Shown here piece by piece: positions 1 through 15,174 of a stretch of DNA of 23,054 bases. Position numbers and translations under genes: made by a program. Source of the stretch: a bacterium (lineage in GTDB: Bacteria; SZUA-182; DTGQ01). Position 1 is the stretch's first letter; the number at the start of each line of letters is the position of its first letter. The notes under the pieces are model-generated. The model ran no database searches and had not been told where the DNA came from. It worked only from the letters and a program-made list of their open reading frames with translations. The stretch covers positions 1 to 23,054 of the forward strand of contig JAILZY010000057.1 in the NCBI GenBank assembly GCA_023512255.1. The letters are read 5' to 3'.

Positions 1-61
1 CTATTGTCTTTTACCTCAATACCCTTCCCCTGCAGCTTATCTACTTCTCCTAATTTTAAAT

Positions 62-93
62 ATGGGGAACATCTGTAGGAATATCAGATGTTC
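62..93. repeat. Short inverted repeat with outward-facing CAGATGTTC ends
   Basis: The 9-bp arm at 67-75 (GAACATCTG) is the exact reverse complement of 85-93 (CAGATGTTC), with a 9-nt loop between them. Bases 62-75 are also the exact reverse complement of 22980-22993 at the far end of the window (14 bp), and a related sequence starts at 1321. This may be a dispersed repeat or the ends of two miniature elements placed back to back. I see no gene in 1-160. Confidence 0.5.
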
Positions 94-160
94 GAGGAGT
101 GCGACCGAATCAATCAAGTACGCTCTTTTTCAACCCAAAGTGCTGCTTTTTAGATAGGTC

Positions 161-1114
161 TTACCAAACTGGCCAGAATGGGAAGGGGGGAAAAAGATAA
201 AGGGGGGGCTGTGGTGGCAAAGGATAAGGGCTGAAGGCAGGAAACCCATATCCAGCAGCAGGGAACCCATATCCGTATGAAGCATACCTGTATGGTGGGG
301 CAAAACCAAGAGATGATGTTACCCCAAAAGCAGACTCTGGCCAAAACGAGGGTCTTGGAGAAAGATACGCACTCCCGATCGGCAGAGCAGCGGCCACTGT
401 CCAAGGGGAGACATCAACAACCGGAAAGATTGGCTGAGAAGCTGGGAAAATTGGCTGAGATGGACTTGGTGCGGGAAAGGGTGTGGGAGCTGACAGCGGC
501 GGATAAGGAAAGATAGGTGGGGGCGATGGGCTAACGTAGGGAGAAGAGGGAAATGGCGCCGAGGGAATAGGTTCACCCCTTGAGGGTGATGGAGCCGGCG
601 GAGTAAAAACATATCCAACCATTGGAGCCGAGAGCATCGACTCTGCTTTCGGCAGATCAAATTGTTGCGCCTGCTGATAATGAGCCTGCCGGGAGCTGGC
701 ATCTTCAACCGCAAGCGAAATACTGAGGAGCATAGGATAAGCCAGTGAGTAGGTCATTAGGGGAATTTGAGAAGAAGCTGATCCTATCTGCGTCTTTGGC
801 CCAGTGCCCCATGAGCCAATAGGCATTTTAGCCTCCATCGGAGGGCTGCTCGGAATAAGGGCAGTCGGGATAAGGGCAGTCGGGCTCTGGGGAAAAAAAG
901 CCAGCCTGGTCGCTTCTGAAGCCTGCCGCACAGCTTCCTCCTCGCCATCAGGCAGGGTGCTGGCAAGCGGCTGGGTCTGGGGAATCGGTCCAAGTCCTAT
1001 GCTGAAGTGGCTCGGTCTGCTCGGTCTTGGAAGATCAACTGATTGAGCGACGACTACCAGAGGGTGGAAGATGATAAGCCAAACTATAAAGAACAATACC
1101 TTCTTTTTTACCAA
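161..1114 (-). CDS. Secreted proline/alanine/phenylalanine-rich low-complexity protein
   Basis: This is a 317-residue open frame that starts at a TTG (1114). A weak AAGG lies about 12 nt upstream. The N-terminus is a clear signal peptide: MVKKK, then about 18 hydrophobic residues, with cleavage likely near VVVAQS. The mature part is low complexity and rich in Pro, Ser, Ala, Phe and Tyr. It includes a tandem TALIP-TALIP (from a 15-bp DNA duplication at 851-880), PSPSQPIFPASQPIFP-type repeats and a Tyr/Gly/Phe/Pro tail ending FPPFPFWPVW. I recognise no catalytic domain. It is divergent from the Gly/Leu/Tyr-rich secreted protein at 1820 and may be a surface or matrix component, which is inference. 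Long shadow frames on the other strand come from the biased composition. The signal peptide and the bias continuing to the stop argue that this frame is the real one. Confidence 0.6.
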   Translation of the reverse strand: MVKKKVLFFIVWLIIFHPLVVVAQSVDLPRPSRPSHFSIGLGPIPQTQPLASTLPDGEEEAVRQASEATRLAFFPQSPTALIPTALIPSSPPMEAKMPIGSWGTGPKTQIGSASSQIPLMTYSLAYPMLLSISLAVEDASSRQAHYQQAQQFDLPKAESMLSAPMVGYVFTPPAPSPSRGEPIPSAPFPSSPYVSPSPPPIFPYPPLSAPTPFPAPSPSQPIFPASQPIFPVVDVSPWTVAAALPIGSAYLSPRPSFWPESAFGVTSSLGFAPPYRYASYGYGFPAAGYGFPAFSPYPLPPQPPLYLFPPFPFWPVW

Positions 1115-7844: not shown

Positions 7845-9077
7845 TCACTGATCGCTGATTCCGCACTCCTCAGGAGTCAAGTAGCACTGAGGATCTTCCA
7901 TCCAGGGATCGCCGTAAACTCGCAGGGCCCGCACCCTAAAAGAGCCACCGCAGGCATCGATCCACCGACATCGGCTGCACTTTCCCTTGAGCAGGGGCTT
8001 TCGATTTTTTAGGCCAGCCATGATCGGATCTCGCGTATCCATCCAAATCTCCGAGAAAGGCCGCTCCCTGACATTCCCCAGGGTATAATCCAACCAGAAT
8101 TGATCTGGATGCACATTCCCGCAAAAATCAATTTCACCAATACCAACCCCAGTTGAGTAAAGCCCTCCGCCATTCCAGGTCAGAAGCTCCATGACCTCTT
8201 TTGCCCGCTGCGGATTTTTCTGTTTCAGTTTCAAGTAGAGGTAGATTCCATCCACATGGTTGTCTACAGTCAGAATCTCTTTGGCCAGCCCTCGTCTGGC
8301 AAAATCCTCACTCCGCTCCAAAATGATGTCCATAGCTTTACGGGATTCTTCAGCCGTCAGGTCATCATTGCGGATATCAATTCCCCGACCGGAATAAACC
8401 AGATGATAGAAGCAGGCCCGGTCAATATCTTCAGCCTCAATAAAGTCAAAAATTCTGTGCAGATCCTTGGCATTTCTGCGGGTCAGAGTCAGGCGCAAAC
8501 CTACCCGTTGCCCAACTTCAACGCAATTTCTAAACCCTCTCATAGCTCGCTCGAACGCGCCCGCAACCCCTCGAAATTGATCGTTCACTTCACCGATCCC
8601 ATCCAGGCTGATGCCTACATAGGTAAAGCCCACCTCTTTCAGCTTGCGAGCCACTTCCTTGGTGATCAGGGTGCCGTTAGTTGACAGGGTCGGCTTAACT
8701 CCCTGCTCCAGGGCATAGGCAGCTAGCTCAAAAAGGTCCTTTCGGATCAGCGGCTCTCCGCCTGAAAAGAGAATAGCCGGCACCTTGAATCTTCCAAGGT
8801 CAGCCAGCATTGCTTTGGCCTCATCCGTGGTCAACTCTCCCTGATAGGGAATATTTTCCGAATCAGTATAGCAGTGAACACATTTCAAATTGCAGGTCCT
8901 GGTTGAGTTCCAGACCACAATAGGCCGCCTTTCAGAAGCACTCAAGGGAATACGGCTGTTAGTCAGCCCTTCCCAACCCTGGCCAAGCCTATGATGACTT
9001 TTGTTGATTTTTCGGCCATACCGAAGATCATCACTCGGAGTCTCCTCTCCGCAATACAATCTCGTAATGTTGATCAT
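7845..9077 (-). CDS. ahbC: 12,18-didecarboxysiroheme deacetylase (radical SAM, AhbC)
   Basis: This 410-residue radical SAM enzyme acts in the siroheme-dependent heme pathway, where AhbC removes the two acetate side chains of didecarboxysiroheme to give iron-coproporphyrin III. Family marks are the N-terminal MINITRLYCGEETPSDDLRYG, the cluster site C62-x3-C66-x2-C69 (TCNLKCVHCY), FSGGEPL, STNGTLI, GISLDG, CFYHLVYSGRG, VDNHVDGIY and the C-terminal Cys set (GKCSRCRWIDACGGSFRVRA) for a second cluster. ATG 9077 is preferred because AAGGAAAA lies 6-8 nt upstream and homologues begin at this residue; a TTG at 9095 is also in frame. A sigma-70 promoter lies at 9128-9156. The related NirJ of heme d1 synthesis is an alternative, but the motifs fit AhbC better. 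No other ahb genes are in the window. Confidence 0.88.
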   Translation of the reverse strand: MINITRLYCGEETPSDDLRYGRKINKSHHRLGQGWEGLTNSRIPLSASERRPIVVWNSTRTCNLKCVHCYTDSENIPYQGELTTDEAKAMLADLGRFKVPAILFSGGEPLIRKDLFELAAYALEQGVKPTLSTNGTLITKEVARKLKEVGFTYVGISLDGIGEVNDQFRGVAGAFERAMRGFRNCVEVGQRVGLRLTLTRRNAKDLHRIFDFIEAEDIDRACFYHLVYSGRGIDIRNDDLTAEESRKAMDIILERSEDFARRGLAKEILTVDNHVDGIYLYLKLKQKNPQRAKEVMELLTWNGGGLYSTGVGIGEIDFCGNVHPDQFWLDYTLGNVRERPFSEIWMDTRDPIMAGLKNRKPLLKGKCSRCRWIDACGGSFRVRALRVYGDPWMEDPQCYLTPEECGISDQ

Positions 9078-9127
9078 GATGATTTTCCTTATCAAGTTTT
9101 AGTGATCAGGAAGCAAAAAGCTTCTTC

Positions 9128-9171: not shown

Positions 9172-9207
9172 AAGGGGAAAACCCTTTTAAAAAAGGGTTT
9201 TCCCCTT
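9172..9207. repeat. Palindromic hairpin repeat, copy A1
   Basis: A perfect 17-bp inverted repeat (9172-9188 with 9191-9207) has a 2-nt centre and the core AACCCTTTT-nn-AAAAGGGTT. It has no T-tract on either strand, so it is not a typical terminator. It is followed from 9211 by CCCCTTTCCTAAAACTTTA, nearly identical to the sequence after the related hairpin at 16045-16086. Confidence 0.8.
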
Positions 9208-9217
9208 TCGCCCCTTT

Positions 9218-9253
9218 CCTAAAACTTTAATATCTTAATATTAAAGTTTTAGG
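9218..9253. repeat. Palindromic hairpin repeat, copy A2
   Basis: A perfect 16-bp stem (9218-9233 with 9238-9253) and 4-nt loop. Its left arm, CCTAAAACTTTA, is the part conserved beside the hairpin at 16045-16086, where the right arm is missing. Confidence 0.75.
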
Positions 9254-9261
9254 AGGATGGT

Positions 9262-9318
9262 TTGGAAGGAACCCTTTTTCAAAAGGGTTCCTTCCAATTT
9301 TAAAAGGGTTTCTTCCAA
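9262..9318. repeat. Palindromic hairpin repeat, copy A3, plus an extra half-arm
   Basis: A perfect 17-bp stem (9262-9278 with 9281-9297) has a 2-nt centre and the same CCCTTTT/AAAAGGG core as copy A1. The right arm is repeated with one change at 9302-9318. The three hairpins occupy most of the divergent gap between ahbC and the glucan dikinase gene. Confidence 0.75.
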
Positions 9319-9362: not shown

Positions 9363-9422
9363 TAGCAGGCAGGAAGGTACGTATCGCTAATTAACTCAAG
9401 GAGAAGCAGAACTATTCTTGGA

Positions 9423-12400
9423 TTGGATAAAAAAAGTGAAGCTGCAATAGACAGCCGCACAGGCTCGATTCTGCTTGCGGGAAAAGAGGGTGCCATCTGC
9501 TGGCAACTTAAACTGGGGGAGCACCCAAGGGAGGAGCACTCAAAGAGGGAACACCCAAGAGGGGAGCACTCAAGGCCGCAAGAGCCAAAGCTGGTCTTGG
9601 TTATTGTCGCCCATTGCTCTGAAAAACCCCTCCTTCACTGGGGCGTCGCCTACACACCCCCCTGGGCTAGCGCTTATGAAAAATGCCCATCAGGCTGGGT
9701 TCTTCCGCCGCCGATCATCCGACCGCCAGAGACAGTGGATTGTCGGGATGGCCTGGCTGTGCAAACTCCCATGATTGAGGCGGGAGAAAGTGGCCTTTTT
9801 TCAATTACCATAACTATTCCAACGAGTCTGAATATCAGACAAATTCTCTTTGTCCTCTATTTTCCTCAAAGCCACACCTGGGATAACAACCAGCAACAGG
9901 ATTATATCATCCCTCTGCCAGCAAGATCAGACATTCCACTGCTACTGACTCTTGCAGCTTCCCAGCAAGGGGAAGCCCCCCTGATCCAGTCGATTGTAGG
10001 ACGAATCCTAGCCCATGAGAGCCGAAAACATTGGGAGATGGGGATGCGGCTTGAATTTATCGGCCATCTGCTCGATGAGTTTGAGCCAACTGAATCTGTG
10101 CTTAGCCTGCTTGAAATTTACTTACAGTATGCGGCTCAAGGCCATCTTCCCTGGCGCCGCCACTATGACCGACAGACTTACATCCTGGCCCCGAAGATTC
10201 TAAGGCTAGCTGAGAAAATTTCTAAACTCTTGCTCGCCTGGCGTCCCCGCTTTCTGCCGATCTGGCGGCGGATGCTGGGAAATCTCCCCTCATCAGGCCG
10301 CAATCTACAGGATATTGGCCTGGCTATCCGACTCAAGATTCTCGAGTGTAAGGATCACCAGATACGGATTATCTATGACCCATTTGTGTCTGATTTCCAC
10401 CAGAAGCTCCACAATGCCAGCGGACCTGAAGATGTGGCTATCTGCCGAGCATATCTGGCCTTTCTGGACTCTGGGGGAGATATCAACCAATTCTATCAGA
10501 GCCTCTGGCAGGCAGGGTTAGCTAAGGAGGAGCGGCTGGATAATGGTCAAAAGGTGTTCATCCCACTTCTGGACCTCTACGGAGACTGTCGCTCCATTCG
10601 GCATCTTCCAACCTATGATGTCCAAAAAGCCCAAGCGACTAGGAAGGTTTTCGATGAGCTTCTCATCCTCCTTGAGAAGTTTTTCGGTGGTATGGAAGTC
10701 GAGGAGGCAATTGCCCTGGTCAAACCACAGGCTGATTCTGACCTCTGGCAGAAATTGCAAAACCTTTTGGCTCTGAAAGAAAAACAGAAGGCTCATGGCT
10801 CATCACCTCCTGCTTGCTTTGAGGCCATCTGCTCACTTGCTGAGCTAAGGCTTGAGCTTCGGTCAAGAATCCTACACATTAGCCTGACAAGCGATGACAT
10901 CCGTAAATTTTTGCACCTTGACCTGGCCCTTGGAAACTATGCCAAAGCCCTGGCCGCATCTCTTCTCAATGCCCTATCATCCACTGACAGCCTCGACCGC
11001 AGCCACCACCGTCTCATAGAATCACTATTTTCTTGCTTTGATCTTCTCGATCTCCTTATCCTGCACCTTTCTGCTGATGCTCAGCCTGAGGCTGAGATTC
11101 CCGTAATCCAACAGCACCTTAGGCAGTGGCTAGAAAGGGGTAAGCGATGCGGCATAAAGCAGCAGACTCAAAAAGAGGGCAGTGCCGACGACTGGTATCT
11201 TGAGGGAAAGGCTATTTTGGCTCGTCTTGGCCATGTTATCCAGACCCAGGCAAGGAGCCGCATAGCCCTATATCAACCCAAAGCAGAGCTACTTGGCCGT
11301 CTGCTTGAGATCAGCCCAAAGGTTTGGCAAACCTTCAGCGAGGAGAGCCTGCGCCATGACTGGCTATTTTATCTTTCCCGGCTGCTCACTCTGGCTAGAC
11401 ATACCCTGCGGCAAATAGCTGGATGGAGTGCAACCGAGGTGCTGGTGCCTGGACGGGTGCAGGGGAAGGTAGCCAGGCTGGATGAACTCTCATCCTTGCC
11501 CTCTTCTTCTTTACTCGGTGAGGCTCCCCTGATTCTGCTTTTAGAACATTTGCGCGGCGATGAAGATATTCCTGAAGGCATAGCCGCCATGATCAGTCGA
11601 ATAGCACGGGATAGGCTGAGCCACTTCGGGATTAGGGCCAGGGAACAGGGGGTAGTCTGGATCTGCCTTGAAGAGGAAGCCGACTACCAGAAGCTTAAAC
11701 AGTATGAAGGAGCTTGGATCGAGCTTTTAGCCGATGAGAATCAGATCCGGGTTACAACTATTGCCCCACCTTCCCCTTGGGCTCATCCTGCTGCCGGAAA
11801 AGTCAAGAGCCGGGGATTTTCTCTGCCAGTGGTGCGCCGCGCTGGGTCATTAACTTTAGTCTATCCAGAACAGTATGAGCTTTCAACTGTCGGCCCAAAG
11901 GCATATCAACTTCGACTGCTCAGGGAGCGGCTCTGTGGCCAGGTGCAGGTACCGGACTCTATAGCCGTACCCTTTGGCGTTTTCGAGCTGCTATTGCAGG
12001 CTAACCCTAAAGCAAGCAGCGAATACCGCAAGATAACCGACAGCTTGGCCAGGGGCGAGGAGTCAGTGGCGGCGGCGGATAGTAGTCAGTTGGGCAAGCA
12101 ACTTGAAGCCTTGCGGGAGCTGATCGAATCGCTCGATATAAGTCAGGATTACTGCCTCAGGCTAAGGCAGGCTGTGCAGGAAAGACTTGGCCCAAATGTC
12201 CCCCTGATTTTCCGCTCAAGCTCCAATGCCGAGGACCTTGAAGGTTATAGCGCCGCCGGTCTATATGAGTCTTACCCAGGGGTACATCTTGAGAAGCTGC
12301 CACGGTTTTTGAAAAAGGTCTGGGCTTCTCAATGGAGCCTGCGGGCAGTAACTAACCGCCTCAGGGCAGGGATCCCTCATGAAGAAGTTCGCCTGGCGGT

Positions 12401-12884
12401 GTTGATCCAGGAGTTGATTTTAGCCGATTATGCATTTGTGGTCCATACTCATTATCCCCTAGCCTCTGCTGGCAGTCAGGCTCTGTCTGAAAGCCGTAAT
12501 CAACTATACATCGAGCTGGTCCAGGGCCTTGGAGAATCGCTAGTCGGAGGGTCAGAAGGGCAGGGATACCAGATCCTATATGAGCGAAGCTCAGGGGAAT
12601 TGAAACGGATAGGCTTTGCCACCAAGGGGTGGCGCTGGATGATCGGAGCCGATGGTCTCCCGGTCAGGGTCGTCAGTGACTATTCAAACGATCTACTCTG
12701 CTTGGAAAAGGATAAATGGGCGCCCCTGATTCGCCAGGTTGCTCTGATCTCGATCATGATCGAAGCGGCTTGGGGAAATCAGCCCCAGGATATTGAAGGG
12801 GTAATTAAGGATGGGAAAATTTTTATTGTCCAGACCAGGCCACAGCAGATTTTCAAAGCCACTGACATCATCCATAAACCATGA
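9423..12884 (+). CDS. Alpha-glucan water dikinase (GWD) family protein
   Basis: This 1153-residue homologue of plant GWD would transfer the beta-phosphate of ATP to a glucan glucosyl unit and release the gamma-phosphate to water. Parts seen in order: a CBM45-like region (about 14-170; LHWGV at 71, GWVLPPP at 91); a central GWD region with DFHQKLHNASGPEDVAICRA (324-343; plant EWHQKLHNNTSPDDVVIC); the swivelling phosphohistidine domain with GDEDIPEG and LSHFGIRAR, whose H734 is the predicted phosphorylated histidine (plant LSHVSVRAR); and the C-terminal PPDK-type nucleotide-binding domain with GPKAYQL (824), FRSSSNAEDLEGYSAAGLYES (930-950; R931) and VQTRPQ near the end. Plant GWD is longer with two CBM45 domains; this has one plus a charged repeat insert (about 32-51). 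The start is uncertain: TTG 9423 lies 19 nt after AAGGAG (9398-9403), and an ATT at 9414 is better spaced. The phosphatase gene begins 33 bp downstream. Confidence 0.9.
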   Translation: MDKKSEAAIDSRTGSILLAGKEGAICWQLKLGEHPREEHSKREHPRGEHSRPQEPKLVLVIVAHCSEKPLLHWGVAYTPPWASAYEKCPSGWVLPPPIIRPPETVDCRDGLAVQTPMIEAGESGLFSITITIPTSLNIRQILFVLYFPQSHTWDNNQQQDYIIPLPARSDIPLLLTLAASQQGEAPLIQSIVGRILAHESRKHWEMGMRLEFIGHLLDEFEPTESVLSLLEIYLQYAAQGHLPWRRHYDRQTYILAPKILRLAEKISKLLLAWRPRFLPIWRRMLGNLPSSGRNLQDIGLAIRLKILECKDHQIRIIYDPFVSDFHQKLHNASGPEDVAICRAYLAFLDSGGDINQFYQSLWQAGLAKEERLDNGQKVFIPLLDLYGDCRSIRHLPTYDVQKAQATRKVFDELLILLEKFFGGMEVEEAIALVKPQADSDLWQKLQNLLALKEKQKAHGSSPPACFEAICSLAELRLELRSRILHISLTSDDIRKFLHLDLALGNYAKALAASLLNALSSTDSLDRSHHRLIESLFSCFDLLDLLILHLSADAQPEAEIPVIQQHLRQWLERGKRCGIKQQTQKEGSADDWYLEGKAILARLGHVIQTQARSRIALYQPKAELLGRLLEISPKVWQTFSEESLRHDWLFYLSRLLTLARHTLRQIAGWSATEVLVPGRVQGKVARLDELSSLPSSSLLGEAPLILLLEHLRGDEDIPEGIAAMISRIARDRLSHFGIRAREQGVVWICLEEEADYQKLKQYEGAWIELLADENQIRVTTIAPPSPWAHPAAGKVKSRGFSLPVVRRAGSLTLVYPEQYELSTVGPKAYQLRLLRERLCGQVQVPDSIAVPFGVFELLLQANPKASSEYRKITDSLARGEESVAAADSSQLGKQLEALRELIESLDISQDYCLRLRQAVQERLGPNVPLIFRSSSNAEDLEGYSAAGLYESYPGVHLEKLPRFLKKVWASQWSLRAVTNRLRAGIPHEEVRLAVLIQELILADYAFVVHTHYPLASAGSQALSESRNQLYIELVQGLGESLVGGSEGQGYQILYERSSGELKRIGFATKGWRWMIGADGLPVRVVSDYSNDLLCLEKDKWAPLIRQVALISIMIEAAWGNQPQDIEGVIKDGKIFIVQTRPQQIFKATDIIHKP
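9516..9575 (+). repeat. Short tandem repeats inside the dikinase N-terminus
   Basis: About four units of the type GGAGCACYCAAGRG encode a highly charged EHPREEHSKREHPRGEHSR-like stretch inside the CBM45-like domain. This looks like a local expansion and probably a surface loop. Confidence 0.6.
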
Positions 12885-12917
12885 CAAACGAGGGAGAAGA
12901 AGGGAGAAGAAAAGACT

Positions 12918-13766
12918 ATGACTGATCAATTTGTCCAGATCACAGAGATTCAGCCTCCCCTAGGCTCATCCCGCACCCTGTACATGCTGGAGCCCTTCGG
13001 CGTGATGGTAAAGGCTACTGCCTACCCCTGTTGCTCACCTCAAAGCCTGGTGGCGGAAATCTGGACCAATGCCATTGACAAACTCAGCCCAGAGGGTGCA
13101 TGGCATGGAGTCCCCATGTACCTAAATTCATCACCAGCCGCAAATCTTCTTGAATTTCACGGCTCTTTCATGCCCACAGATCAGGGGCGATTCGAGTACA
13201 CCGTCAGGGTCGGACTCAAGAAAAACGGACAACCCTATCCCTCCTGCTGGCAGTGGGCCGGAGCCTATGGGCAAAATGGAGCCTTAACCGTTCTCCCACC
13301 CTCTCCTGAGATGGACTGGACTCAAGGGCCGCAGGCTGAGGAGATTGCCCCTGGTGTATTTGTGGCCAATCTCATTGCTGCCTCAAAAGCCCCTGAGCTT
13401 GGCTTCCAAGCCGTATTGAATATGGCCGAAGAGCTTAATTTCGGCTTTCCAGAAGGCGGCGTCGAATATAAAAAGATTGCCCTGCCCGATGGCGCCCATA
13501 ATCCGATTCCTTCAGAAAAGATTCTGGAGGCGGTATCCTGGATCAAGCAACAGGTTGAGCAAGGACGAAGGGTGTGCATCAATTGTCGGGCTGGAATTGG
13601 CAGATCAGGCTCAATTGGCATCGCCTACCTATATGCTTCCCACCCAGACTGGTCGTATACCGAGGCTCTCCAGGCCGCCTGGAGCAAAAAGCCAAATATT
13701 TATCCTCATCAAAATCTGCATCTGACCCTAGAAGCGCTCTTTCCCAGAAGGCCGAGGAAAAGCTGA
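12918..13766 (+). CDS. Dual-specificity (DSP-type) phosphatase with N-terminal beta-sandwich-like domain; candidate glucan phosphatase
   Basis: The C-terminal half of this 282-residue protein (about 135-275) is a DSP/PTP-type phosphatase. It has the loop C223-R-A-G-I-G-R229-S and the likely general acid D191 (LPDGAHNP), 32 residues before the cysteine as is usual. The residue before the cysteine is Asn (INCRAG), where most PTPs have His. The N-terminal half (about 1-130) has no catalytic motif but is rich in alternating strands and aromatics (FHGSFMPTDQGRFEYTV, CWQWAGAYGQNGALTV), suggesting an Ig-like or carbohydrate-binding fold. Laforin also has a binding domain before its DSP; SEX4 has one after. 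Position directly after the dikinase, same strand, 33 bp apart, suggests it removes glucan phosphate; a protein phosphatase role remains possible. The start is ATG 12918, preceded by purine-rich GGGAGAAG. Confidence 0.75.
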   Translation: MTDQFVQITEIQPPLGSSRTLYMLEPFGVMVKATAYPCCSPQSLVAEIWTNAIDKLSPEGAWHGVPMYLNSSPAANLLEFHGSFMPTDQGRFEYTVRVGLKKNGQPYPSCWQWAGAYGQNGALTVLPPSPEMDWTQGPQAEEIAPGVFVANLIAASKAPELGFQAVLNMAEELNFGFPEGGVEYKKIALPDGAHNPIPSEKILEAVSWIKQQVEQGRRVCINCRAGIGRSGSIGIAYLYASHPDWSYTEALQAAWSKKPNIYPHQNLHLTLEALFPRRPRKS

Positions 13767-13926: not shown

Positions 13927-15174
13927 TTGAGGGGCGATAGCCAAGAGAAGGCGCTAAAAAGATTAAAAAACCGCATTAAACTTTGCTCTCGCGGCATTAC
14001 CCTGCCGCCTGGCTCAAAACCCGTACTTCACCTTCAATCAAAACAAGGAGGAGCAGGACCTCAAGGTGTGGCTAGCTATGTCGGCGAGTCTCCAGGAGAC
14101 CACAGCAGTCAGATAAGCTTGCTGATCCTTCCCGAAGAACATTATCTGGCCCGATATGCTTTGCCAACATGTTGGGTAGAAAACCAATCGAACCGCATGG
14201 GTAAAGAGGGAAAGAGAAAGGTCTTGCAGGCAGATGGCGAAGATATCTTCTTGGAAAAGGTACCAAACAACTGGAGAGGAATATTGCCCAATGGCCGAAA
14301 AACTAACATCCTTTCAAAAGCAAGGTTTCATCCCTATGGGACCTTCTCGATCTGCCTGTATCGGAATTGCAGGCATCTTGAAAGTGACGAAGGGTGCAAG
14401 TATTGCACGGCCAATTTGCTGATCAATAAACTTAACTTCTATGAGCGGCTACCAGATCAGGAGAACCTCGATTACCTCACCTTGGCTATGGCTCACAATC
14501 CGATCCGCTCGGTTACCCTGACCAGCGGCACTTTTGAATCCCCAGAGAAAACCACCAGAGAACTGATATCTCAAGCCAGATTGATTAAGGAGAAAACCGC
14601 TCTGTCGATTCATGTTCAGATCGAGCCGATTTTCGACCCAACACTAATGAAGGAGCTGAGCCAGGTCAGCGACTCAATCGGCATATTCCTGGAATTTTTC
14701 GATGAGCGCATCAGACGACAAATCTGCCCCGGCAAAGCCAAAGCCTTCTCTCAGGAGGATTACCTGCGGAGTTGGGAGCTGGCCGTAGCCTGCTTTGGCT
14801 GGGGAAAGGTCTTCACGACCAATATTCTCGGTTTTGATGATGACTATGAGCTTATCCTGCGAGGGATTGAGAAAGCGGCTAAAGTCGGAGTAATGACCTC
14901 TCTCCTCTGGCTTCGGGTCGGAAGTCCCCAGTTGGGTGAGTTCGTTCCCTCATACCTTGAGCGAGATGAAGAGCTGCTGGTGCAACTCCACCTTGAGGCA
15001 GGAAAAATTCTGGTCGAAAACTCGGTGGATAGCCTGGCTGGGGAAAATTCTGGCTGCCTAGGCTGCCATGGCTGCAACGCTATCGGTGAGGCTATTTCCT
15101 GGGCGCGGCTGGCTTTACAGAAGAGCCACAAGACCACAACCTCAAATAAAAGTGAGGCCGCGGCAGTTAGCTAA
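13927..15174 (+). CDS. Radical SAM protein, MSMEG_0568-like
   Basis: This 415-residue protein shows a radical SAM barrel with a widely spaced cluster motif, C148-x8-C157-x2-C160 (an extra C143 precedes it), followed by TLTSGTFES as the SAM-contacting strand. Further blocks (SIHVQIEP, FLEFFDE, CPGKA, YLRSWELAVACFGWGKV, NILGFDDDYEL) resemble, from memory, the MSMEG_0568 radical SAM family, whose reaction is not established. The C-terminus has GCLGCHGCNA (C377, C380, C383), possible ligands of a second Fe-S cluster. The start is TTG 13927, eight nt after a perfect AGGAGG. It follows the dikinase-phosphatase pair by 160 bp and is convergent with the Nif3-like gene; no functional link to glucan metabolism is evident. 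Substrate unknown. Confidence 0.7.
   Translation: MRGDSQEKALKRLKNRIKLCSRGITLPPGSKPVLHLQSKQGGAGPQGVASYVGESPGDHSSQISLLILPEEHYLARYALPTCWVENQSNRMGKEGKRKVLQADGEDIFLEKVPNNWRGILPNGRKTNILSKARFHPYGTFSICLYRNCRHLESDEGCKYCTANLLINKLNFYERLPDQENLDYLTLAMAHNPIRSVTLTSGTFESPEKTTRELISQARLIKEKTALSIHVQIEPIFDPTLMKELSQVSDSIGIFLEFFDERIRRQICPGKAKAFSQEDYLRSWELAVACFGWGKVFTTNILGFDDDYELILRGIEKAAKVGVMTSLLWLRVGSPQLGEFVPSYLERDEELLVQLHLEAGKILVENSVDSLAGENSGCLGCHGCNAIGEAISWARLALQKSHKTTTSNKSEAAAVS

Follow-up and report, generated by a model that had tools for sequence, protein, structure and literature searches.

ORFs and a candidate glucan phosphorylation system

Open reading frames (ORFs) predicted to encode an alpha-glucan water dikinase (GWD) and a two-domain dual-specificity phosphatase (DSP) lie side by side in a bacterial sequence of 23,054 nucleotides (contig JAILZY010000057.1 of assembly GCA_023512255.1; here, the window). 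The window makes up all of one contig (C50) in a draft genome of 3.83 Mb. The best reading of this pair, and probably the correct one, is a system for the reversible phosphorylation of glycogen in which a laforin-like phosphatase arose independently. Both ORFs are intact and separated by 33 bp, as described in a first-pass annotation of the window (Table 1). The pair would write and erase covalent phosphate on an alpha-1,4/1,6-glucan of the cytoplasm, which is most likely the bacterium's own glycogen. The GWD would move the beta-phosphate of ATP to its phosphohistidine and then to glucosyl residues of the polymer, while the phosphatase would dock on the glucan via its N-terminal beta-sandwich and strip the phosphate by a Cys-x5-Arg mechanism. 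Running in these directions, the two reactions may affect glycogen turnover.

Domains and motifs of the putative dikinase

Comparison of the GWD to Pfam identified the GWD-type immunoglobulin (Ig)-like N-terminal domain Ig_N_CWD1 (PF23166; aa 56 to 165, E = 2.1e-12) and the ATP-grasp domain PPDK_N (PF01326; aa 822 to 1143, E = 3.8e-36), both above curated cutoffs, as well as the phosphohistidine domain GWD1_pHisD (PF22973; aa 672 to 780, E = 6.7e-19, 68 bits versus a 27-bit cutoff). The HQKLHN core spans about aa 190 to 450, and the catalytic phosphohistidine is His 734, within SHFGIRAR. The motifs HQKLHN, LSHFGIRAR, and RSSSNAEDLEGYSAAGLYES were all seen. The GWD signature set reported previously for this ORF was therefore present, except that its "CBM45-like start" corresponds to Ig_N_CWD1 in Pfam. 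A GWD core profile was composed from the window sequence and those of six relatives from bacteria; searched against the PDB, it matched solely the plant GWD structures 9ha9 and 9qvi (E = 7e-83). By its domains and motifs, the predicted product is strongly assigned as a genuine alpha-glucan water dikinase.

In plant GWD1, a permuted RSDSNGEDL segment is placed after WASxW, and RSxxNxEDL follows WASxW in most bacterial GWD1-like proteins as well. The window GWD has the reverse, PPDK-like order, with RSSSNAEDL at 931 and then WASQW at 966. Because the RSxxNxEDL segment precedes WASxW, the protein is considered a member of the GWD family but not of the GWD1 type proper.

In the stretch from 9398 to 9423 of the window, the GWD frame may begin at ATT (9414), 6 to 10 nt past AAGGAG. 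The GWD of a sister species (L013:6322-6340) may begin at ATC, likewise 6 to 10 nt past AAGGAG, and a canonical start codon was not seen there ahead of the homologous GWD N terminus. Strong inverted repeats of the AAAACCCTTTT/AAAAGGGTTTT type occur 5' of the GWD (9172 to 9310), one of them terminator-like on the minus strand with a stem of 16 pairs.

A phosphatase with a laforin-like domain order

The phosphatase matched Pfam DSPc above the cutoff (aa 156 to 270, E = 9.4e-13). Its loop, NCRAGIGRSG, is intact and holds C223 and R229 (C-x5-R), with D191 upstream; all of these residues were unchanged in an alignment of six phosphatase homologs. A model of the catalytic domain showed an ordinary DSP fold (VIA Z scores of 12 to 13). 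The extra N-terminal domain (about aa 1 to 140) is conserved among homologs, and four of its tryptophans (W49, W62, W111, and W113) are invariant within the family. Together, these results bear out the earlier description of a downstream DSP with an intact C-x5-R loop and an additional N-terminal domain.

The best PDB match of the whole-phosphatase model (predicted local distance difference test [pLDDT], 67) in Foldseek was human laforin (4rkk), which aligned across both domains (E = 3.4e-7, 313 columns, 12 to 13% identity), with single-domain DSPs ranking behind at about 1e-5. The root mean square deviation was high, indicating that the orientation of the domains in the model differs from that in laforin. 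For the model of the N-terminal domain, the top 17 Foldseek matches and the top 28 VIA-align matches were without exception alpha-glucan-active or alpha-glucan-binding proteins. VIA Z scores were 8.4 for GlgE, 8.3 for glycogen phosphorylase, 7.5 for a CBM34 alpha-amylase, and 6.3 for the CBM21 of PTG, and the fold matches included S. copri glycogen phosphorylase, Thermoactinomyces alpha-amylase I, MalZ, acarbose hydrolase, and cyclomaltodextrinase. The first unrelated VIA match was the beta-sandwich of beta2-microglobulin (Z = 6.3). Given how frequent immunoglobulin-like sandwiches are in the PDB, a ranking of alpha-glucan proteins is not expected of a generic Ig fold.

The N-terminal domain thus resembles, in its modeled fold, an alpha-glucan-binding-type module, which favors the earlier interpretation over a domain unrelated to carbohydrate binding. 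Its fold and the adjacency of the gene to the GWD suggest that the phosphatase may be targeted to glucan. Laforin-type CBM20 was absent from the top fold-search matches for this domain, which is not proof of its absence. Subthreshold sequence matches of the domain to the GlgE N/S domain (E = 0.19) and, by chance, to a helical domain (E = 0.1) in Pfam and to Caf1M in the PDB (E = 0.08) were not used as evidence.

Searched by sequence against the PDB, the DSP domain was most similar to TkPTP, ShufPTP, and DUSP10, with LSF2 at an E value of 0.0043. In a DSP tree with long branches, the clade of the window phosphatase could not be placed relative to bacterial SEX4-like proteins. The catalytic domain is not close in sequence to the laforin/SEX4/LSF clade and appears to fall outside it; because it does not cluster there, the phosphatase is described as working like laforin and SEX4 rather than as a member of their group. 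For the same reason, the laforin-like arrangement is best read as an independent combination; a glucan-binding domain followed by a DSP, the order seen in laforin, appears to have been reached independently.

A contig scan with the phosphatase alone as the query returned no match, and the next scan used the GWD core. A full-length homolog with 42% identity (L177:9375-10199) was found in a complete genome that is cyanobacterial-looking by its neighboring genes, where it lies near a carotene-desaturase-like gene. Another genome contained a further homolog with a different N-terminal part. Two homologs (L013:9672-10880 and L178:9328-10494) have an additional C-terminal beta-rich domain, which in L178 had a subthreshold match to the starch-binding family CBM53 (E = 0.033). 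A comparison gave no support for homology between the N-terminal domain and the additional C-terminal domain found in the phosphatase of the sister species.

Conservation and selection of the gene cluster

ORFs encoding the GWD, the phosphatase, and a radical S-adenosylmethionine (SAM) protein occurred in this order and in one direction in all four sampled family genomes (G000 to G003, representing three genera), confirming in relatives the pairing noted in the window. The gaps between GWD and phosphatase were 33, 92, 8, and 6 bp, respectively, and no plus-strand terminator-like site was found in the 33-bp gap. Genes flanking the trio were common to G000 and G001 and different in G002; in G003, the contig end truncates the GWD, and the short contig reveals little about the flanks. 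The phylum sample comprised nine genomes, and none of the three genes was found in the five outside the family. Second copies of the radical-SAM gene were present in G002 and G003, and within the phylum this gene occurred in this family only.

Ratios of nonsynonymous to synonymous substitution rates (dN/dS) relative to a same-genus genome were 0.09 for the phosphatase, 0.20 for the GWD, and 0.09 for the radical-SAM gene, compared to 0.09 for argC and 0.05 for argJ as reference genes. All genes of the trio are under purifying selection. Chance adjacency or an artifact (eukaryotic contamination or misassembly) is extremely improbable: the assemblies are drafts and one is a metagenome assembly, but the neighboring genes are bacterial, the genes are intronless, and the trio recurs in four genomes of three genera with dN/dS values of 0.09 to 0.20. 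Neighbors, recurrence, and selection already exclude this explanation.

Evidence weighed for alternative substrates

Several observations weigh against reversible glycogen phosphorylation as the role of the pair. Phosphatase residues 1 to 140 had no significant sequence match in Pfam or the PDB, and the model of the N-terminal domain alone is of middling confidence (pLDDT, 65; predicted template modeling score, 0.66). The DSP domain is closest by sequence to archaeal/ancestral protein tyrosine phosphatases and mitogen-activated protein (MAP) kinase phosphatases, not to laforin or SEX4, and the cyanobacterium-like genome that encodes the phosphatase homolog L177 had no GWD_pHisD match. Conservation of the pair rests on four genomes, the radical-SAM third gene is without a place in the write/erase model, and no alpha-glucan gene was found within 8 kb of the trio at any of the four family loci. 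Genes for glycogen metabolism, which the first-pass annotation had suggested seeking nearby, do not adjoin the pair in the window and lie elsewhere in the host genome, which encodes a GT5 glycogen synthase, a phosphorylase-family protein, and several CBM48/GH13 proteins. No second DSP and no second GWD_pHisD protein were found in that genome.

The sequence affinity of the catalytic domain to protein tyrosine and MAP kinase phosphatases, the homolog whose genome had no detected GWD, and the resemblance of the N-terminal domain to, among others, the CBM21 of PTG/PPP1R3B are consistent with the main rival explanation. Here, the GWD would act on glucan, and its partner would be a glycogen-targeted protein phosphatase that settles on glycogen through the glucan-binding domain and, like PP1 with its CBM21 targeting subunit, dephosphorylates glycogen-bound proteins or the dikinase. 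This alternative is considered unlikely but deserving of serious attention. The sequence CRAGIGR fits the C-x-AG-x-GR loop of SEX4/LSF2 alignments, a pattern typical of glucan phosphatases, although many bacterial DSPs share it, and the strict adjacency to the GWD within the family suggests a substrate in common. Since the genome of one full-length homolog had no GWD_pHisD match, pairing with a GWD is not obligatory for the two-domain phosphatase. The absence of a partner is also the situation of laforin in animals, which have no GWD, so a two-domain phosphatase without a GWD is possible. The window phosphatase would probably act on glucan phosphate rather than on glycogen-bound protein.

The constant presence of the radical-SAM gene in third position, the lack of nearby glg genes, and the placement of the window GWD on a long branch, in a class apart whose domain order is not that of GWD1, could instead reflect a lineage-specific pathway acting on another carbohydrate or on a cofactor, into which a dikinase and a DSP were recruited with a radical-SAM enzyme. 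Such a pathway is judged improbable, as the GWD Ig-like N-terminal domain and HQKLHN core are kept, the fold of the phosphatase N-terminal domain is specifically like that of alpha-glucan binders, and the trio holds no further substrate-specific gene.

Distribution of GWD relatives among bacteria

A scan of 84,980 species genomes for the GWD core identified 132 bacterial loci encoding a relative. The best 80 of these 132 were from Nitrospirota, Thermodesulfobacteriota and other "Deltaproteobacteria," Planctomycetota, Verrucomicrobiota, Pseudomonadota, Acidobacteriota, Omnitrophota, and Myxococcota. A GWD tree resolved three fully supported clades, which correspond to the class of the window GWD; a GWD1-like class, in which the ATP-binding segment is permuted; and a class with an unpermuted order and without HQKLHN, whose genes lie in tandem with those of the GWD1-like class. 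Two GWD-family ORFs, counted as distinct ORFs, were present at 23 loci. At one of them (L021:12641-16159), the second GWD-family ORF lies directly 3' of the GWD1-like gene and encodes an N-terminal xylose isomerase-like TIM barrel (PF01261, E = 5.7e-24) fused to the GWD phosphohistidine and PPDK_N domains; tandem partners occur likewise at about 22 other loci. The second tandem dikinase may be the equivalent of PWD in bacteria, or it may be a dikinase of a new kind.

Among the 32 bacterial GWD loci flanked by 4 kb or more in each direction, 22 had an alpha-glucan gene of verified family (GH13/debranching, GH57, GT5, GlgB, or MalQ) within 8 kb. A GWD1-like paralog in the sister species G001 is followed by ORFs for a GH13 protein and then a GDE-type debranching enzyme. 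These gene neighborhoods support the view that bacterial GWDs in general act on alpha-glucan.

Some DSP was encoded in 23 of 50 GWD-bearing genomes. In three GWD-bearing metagenome-assembled genomes (gammaproteobacterial, desulfobacterial, and acidobacterial), the best PDB matches of a DSP were SEX4, LSF2, and LSF1, with best E values of 6e-18 to 2e-23 and loops of the sequence VHCTAGMGRAP or VHCTAGINRAP. The genes for these SEX4/LSF2-like proteins are not linked to the GWD in their genomes, and their surroundings are bacterial. Algal contamination as the source of the SEX4-like matches was rejected on the basis of these neighboring genes. The pair in the window is real but is not the lone two-gene counterpart of eukaryotic systems first proposed, since GWDs are widespread in bacteria, SEX4/LSF2-like proteins occur elsewhere, and the pair is always accompanied by a radical-SAM gene.

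A broader reading is that phosphorylation of bacterial storage glucans is old and fairly widespread, with the plant and animal systems as later versions and the window as the first case of a writer and an eraser clustered in a bacterium; this is put forward tentatively, as somewhat less than an even prospect. Equally tentative is the list of parts such a process might have used, namely, GWD1-like and tandem second dikinases together with phosphatases of the SEX4/LSF2 type or of an independently assembled laforin type.

Comparison to known systems

Plant and algal GWD1 (EC 2.7.9.4) shares Ig_N_CWD1, the HQKLHN core, the GWD phosphohistidine domain, and the PPDK_N ATP-grasp domain with the window GWD, which differs in being bacterial and without an evident targeting peptide. 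Compared to the GWD1-like bacterial proteins, it falls in a separate clade and has RSxxNxEDL ahead of WASxW. The unpermuted ATP-grasp order is also that of plant PWD (GWD3); in contrast to PWD/GWD3, which has CBM20, the window GWD has the GWD-type Ig-like N-terminal domain and HQKLHN.

As in laforin of animals and some protists, the window phosphatase combines a predicted glucan-binding-type beta-sandwich with a following DSP that has C-x5-R and the D-loop Asp. Unlike laforin, its N-terminal domain has no CBM20 match and is nearest in fold to GlgE, the glycogen phosphorylase C-terminal domain, CBM34, and CBM21, and its gene adjoins that of a GWD, which animals lack. The DSP is proposed to act on phosphoglucan like SEX4 and LSF2 of plants, but the extra domain is N-terminal rather than C-terminal. 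In Toxoplasma, a plant-like dikinase and the laforin-like phosphatase TgLaforin serve reversible glucan phosphorylation, although that pair is eukaryotic and the CBM20 of TgLaforin is split (PMC9254107).

Gentry and Pace reported in 2009 that no bacterial or archaeal protein joins a phosphatase to a carbohydrate-binding domain and judged a glucan phosphatase in bacteria unlikely (PMC2714694). Laforin is called the only known glycogen phosphatase in a 2025 paper (PMC12834914), and glycogen phosphorylation in organisms without laforin, including bacteria, was described in 2025 as open to speculation (PMC13011383). Searches of an open-license library lacking most subscription journals turned up no description of a GWD or of a glucan phosphatase from bacteria. 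The locus provides named candidates for writer and eraser within a single gene cluster of a little-known bacterial lineage, the survey adds many bacterial GWDs and three SEX4/LSF2-like phosphatases, and the pair opens the phosphorylation of glycogen in bacteria to testing. Should the activities hold, glucan phosphate would not have originated with eukaryotes, and bacterial enzymes that are small and soluble would be at hand for studies of starch phosphate and Lafora-type biology.

Feature coordinates and surroundings of the pair

TABLE 1 Features of the window and SEX4/LSF2-like ORFs of other genomes
Feature	Location	Strand	Size, basis, or remark
Alpha-glucan water dikinase homolog (putative)	9423..12884	+	1153 aa; ORF, Pfam, PDB profile match, dN/dS
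Intergenic gap, GWD-phosphatase	12885..12917	+	33 bp; purine-rich ribosome-binding-type sequence gggagaagaagggag ahead of phosphatase ATG
Two-domain phosphatase	12918..13766	+	282 aa; ORF, DSPc, structure models/fold searches, family conservation, dN/dS
N-terminal alpha-glucan-binding-type beta-sandwich of phosphatase (predicted)	aa ~1-135		Model fold searches
Dual-specificity phosphatase domain	aa ~137-280		DSPc, D191, C223, R229
Radical-SAM protein	13927..15174	+	NCBIfam variant rSAM/MSMEG_0568-like, below cutoff; constant third neighbor
Radical SAM/SPASM protein	7845-9095	-	Near NirJ1/AhbC (heme d1/alternative heme pathway), 1.1e-168, below curated cutoff
SEX4/LSF2-like protein L147	G073:C279:3752-4042		PDB match
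SEX4/LSF2-like protein L161	G067:C207:39294-39536		PDB match
SEX4/LSF2-like protein L148	G078:C411:15196-15432		PDB match

Neighboring ORFs in the window were bacterial and included those for Lon, a DhnA-type aldolase, a Nif3-type protein, ArgJ, ArgC, RpsI, RplM, KdsB, and a dGTPase-type HD protein; names of neighbors without a family match were assigned by inspection. A plasmid search was negative, and Rfam and tRNA searches of the window returned no match. Two secreted-looking, low-complexity proteins without a Pfam match are also encoded in the window, one of them Pro rich (161 to 1114) and the other rich in Gly, Leu, and Tyr, with GLYGGLLG repeats (1820 to 2599).

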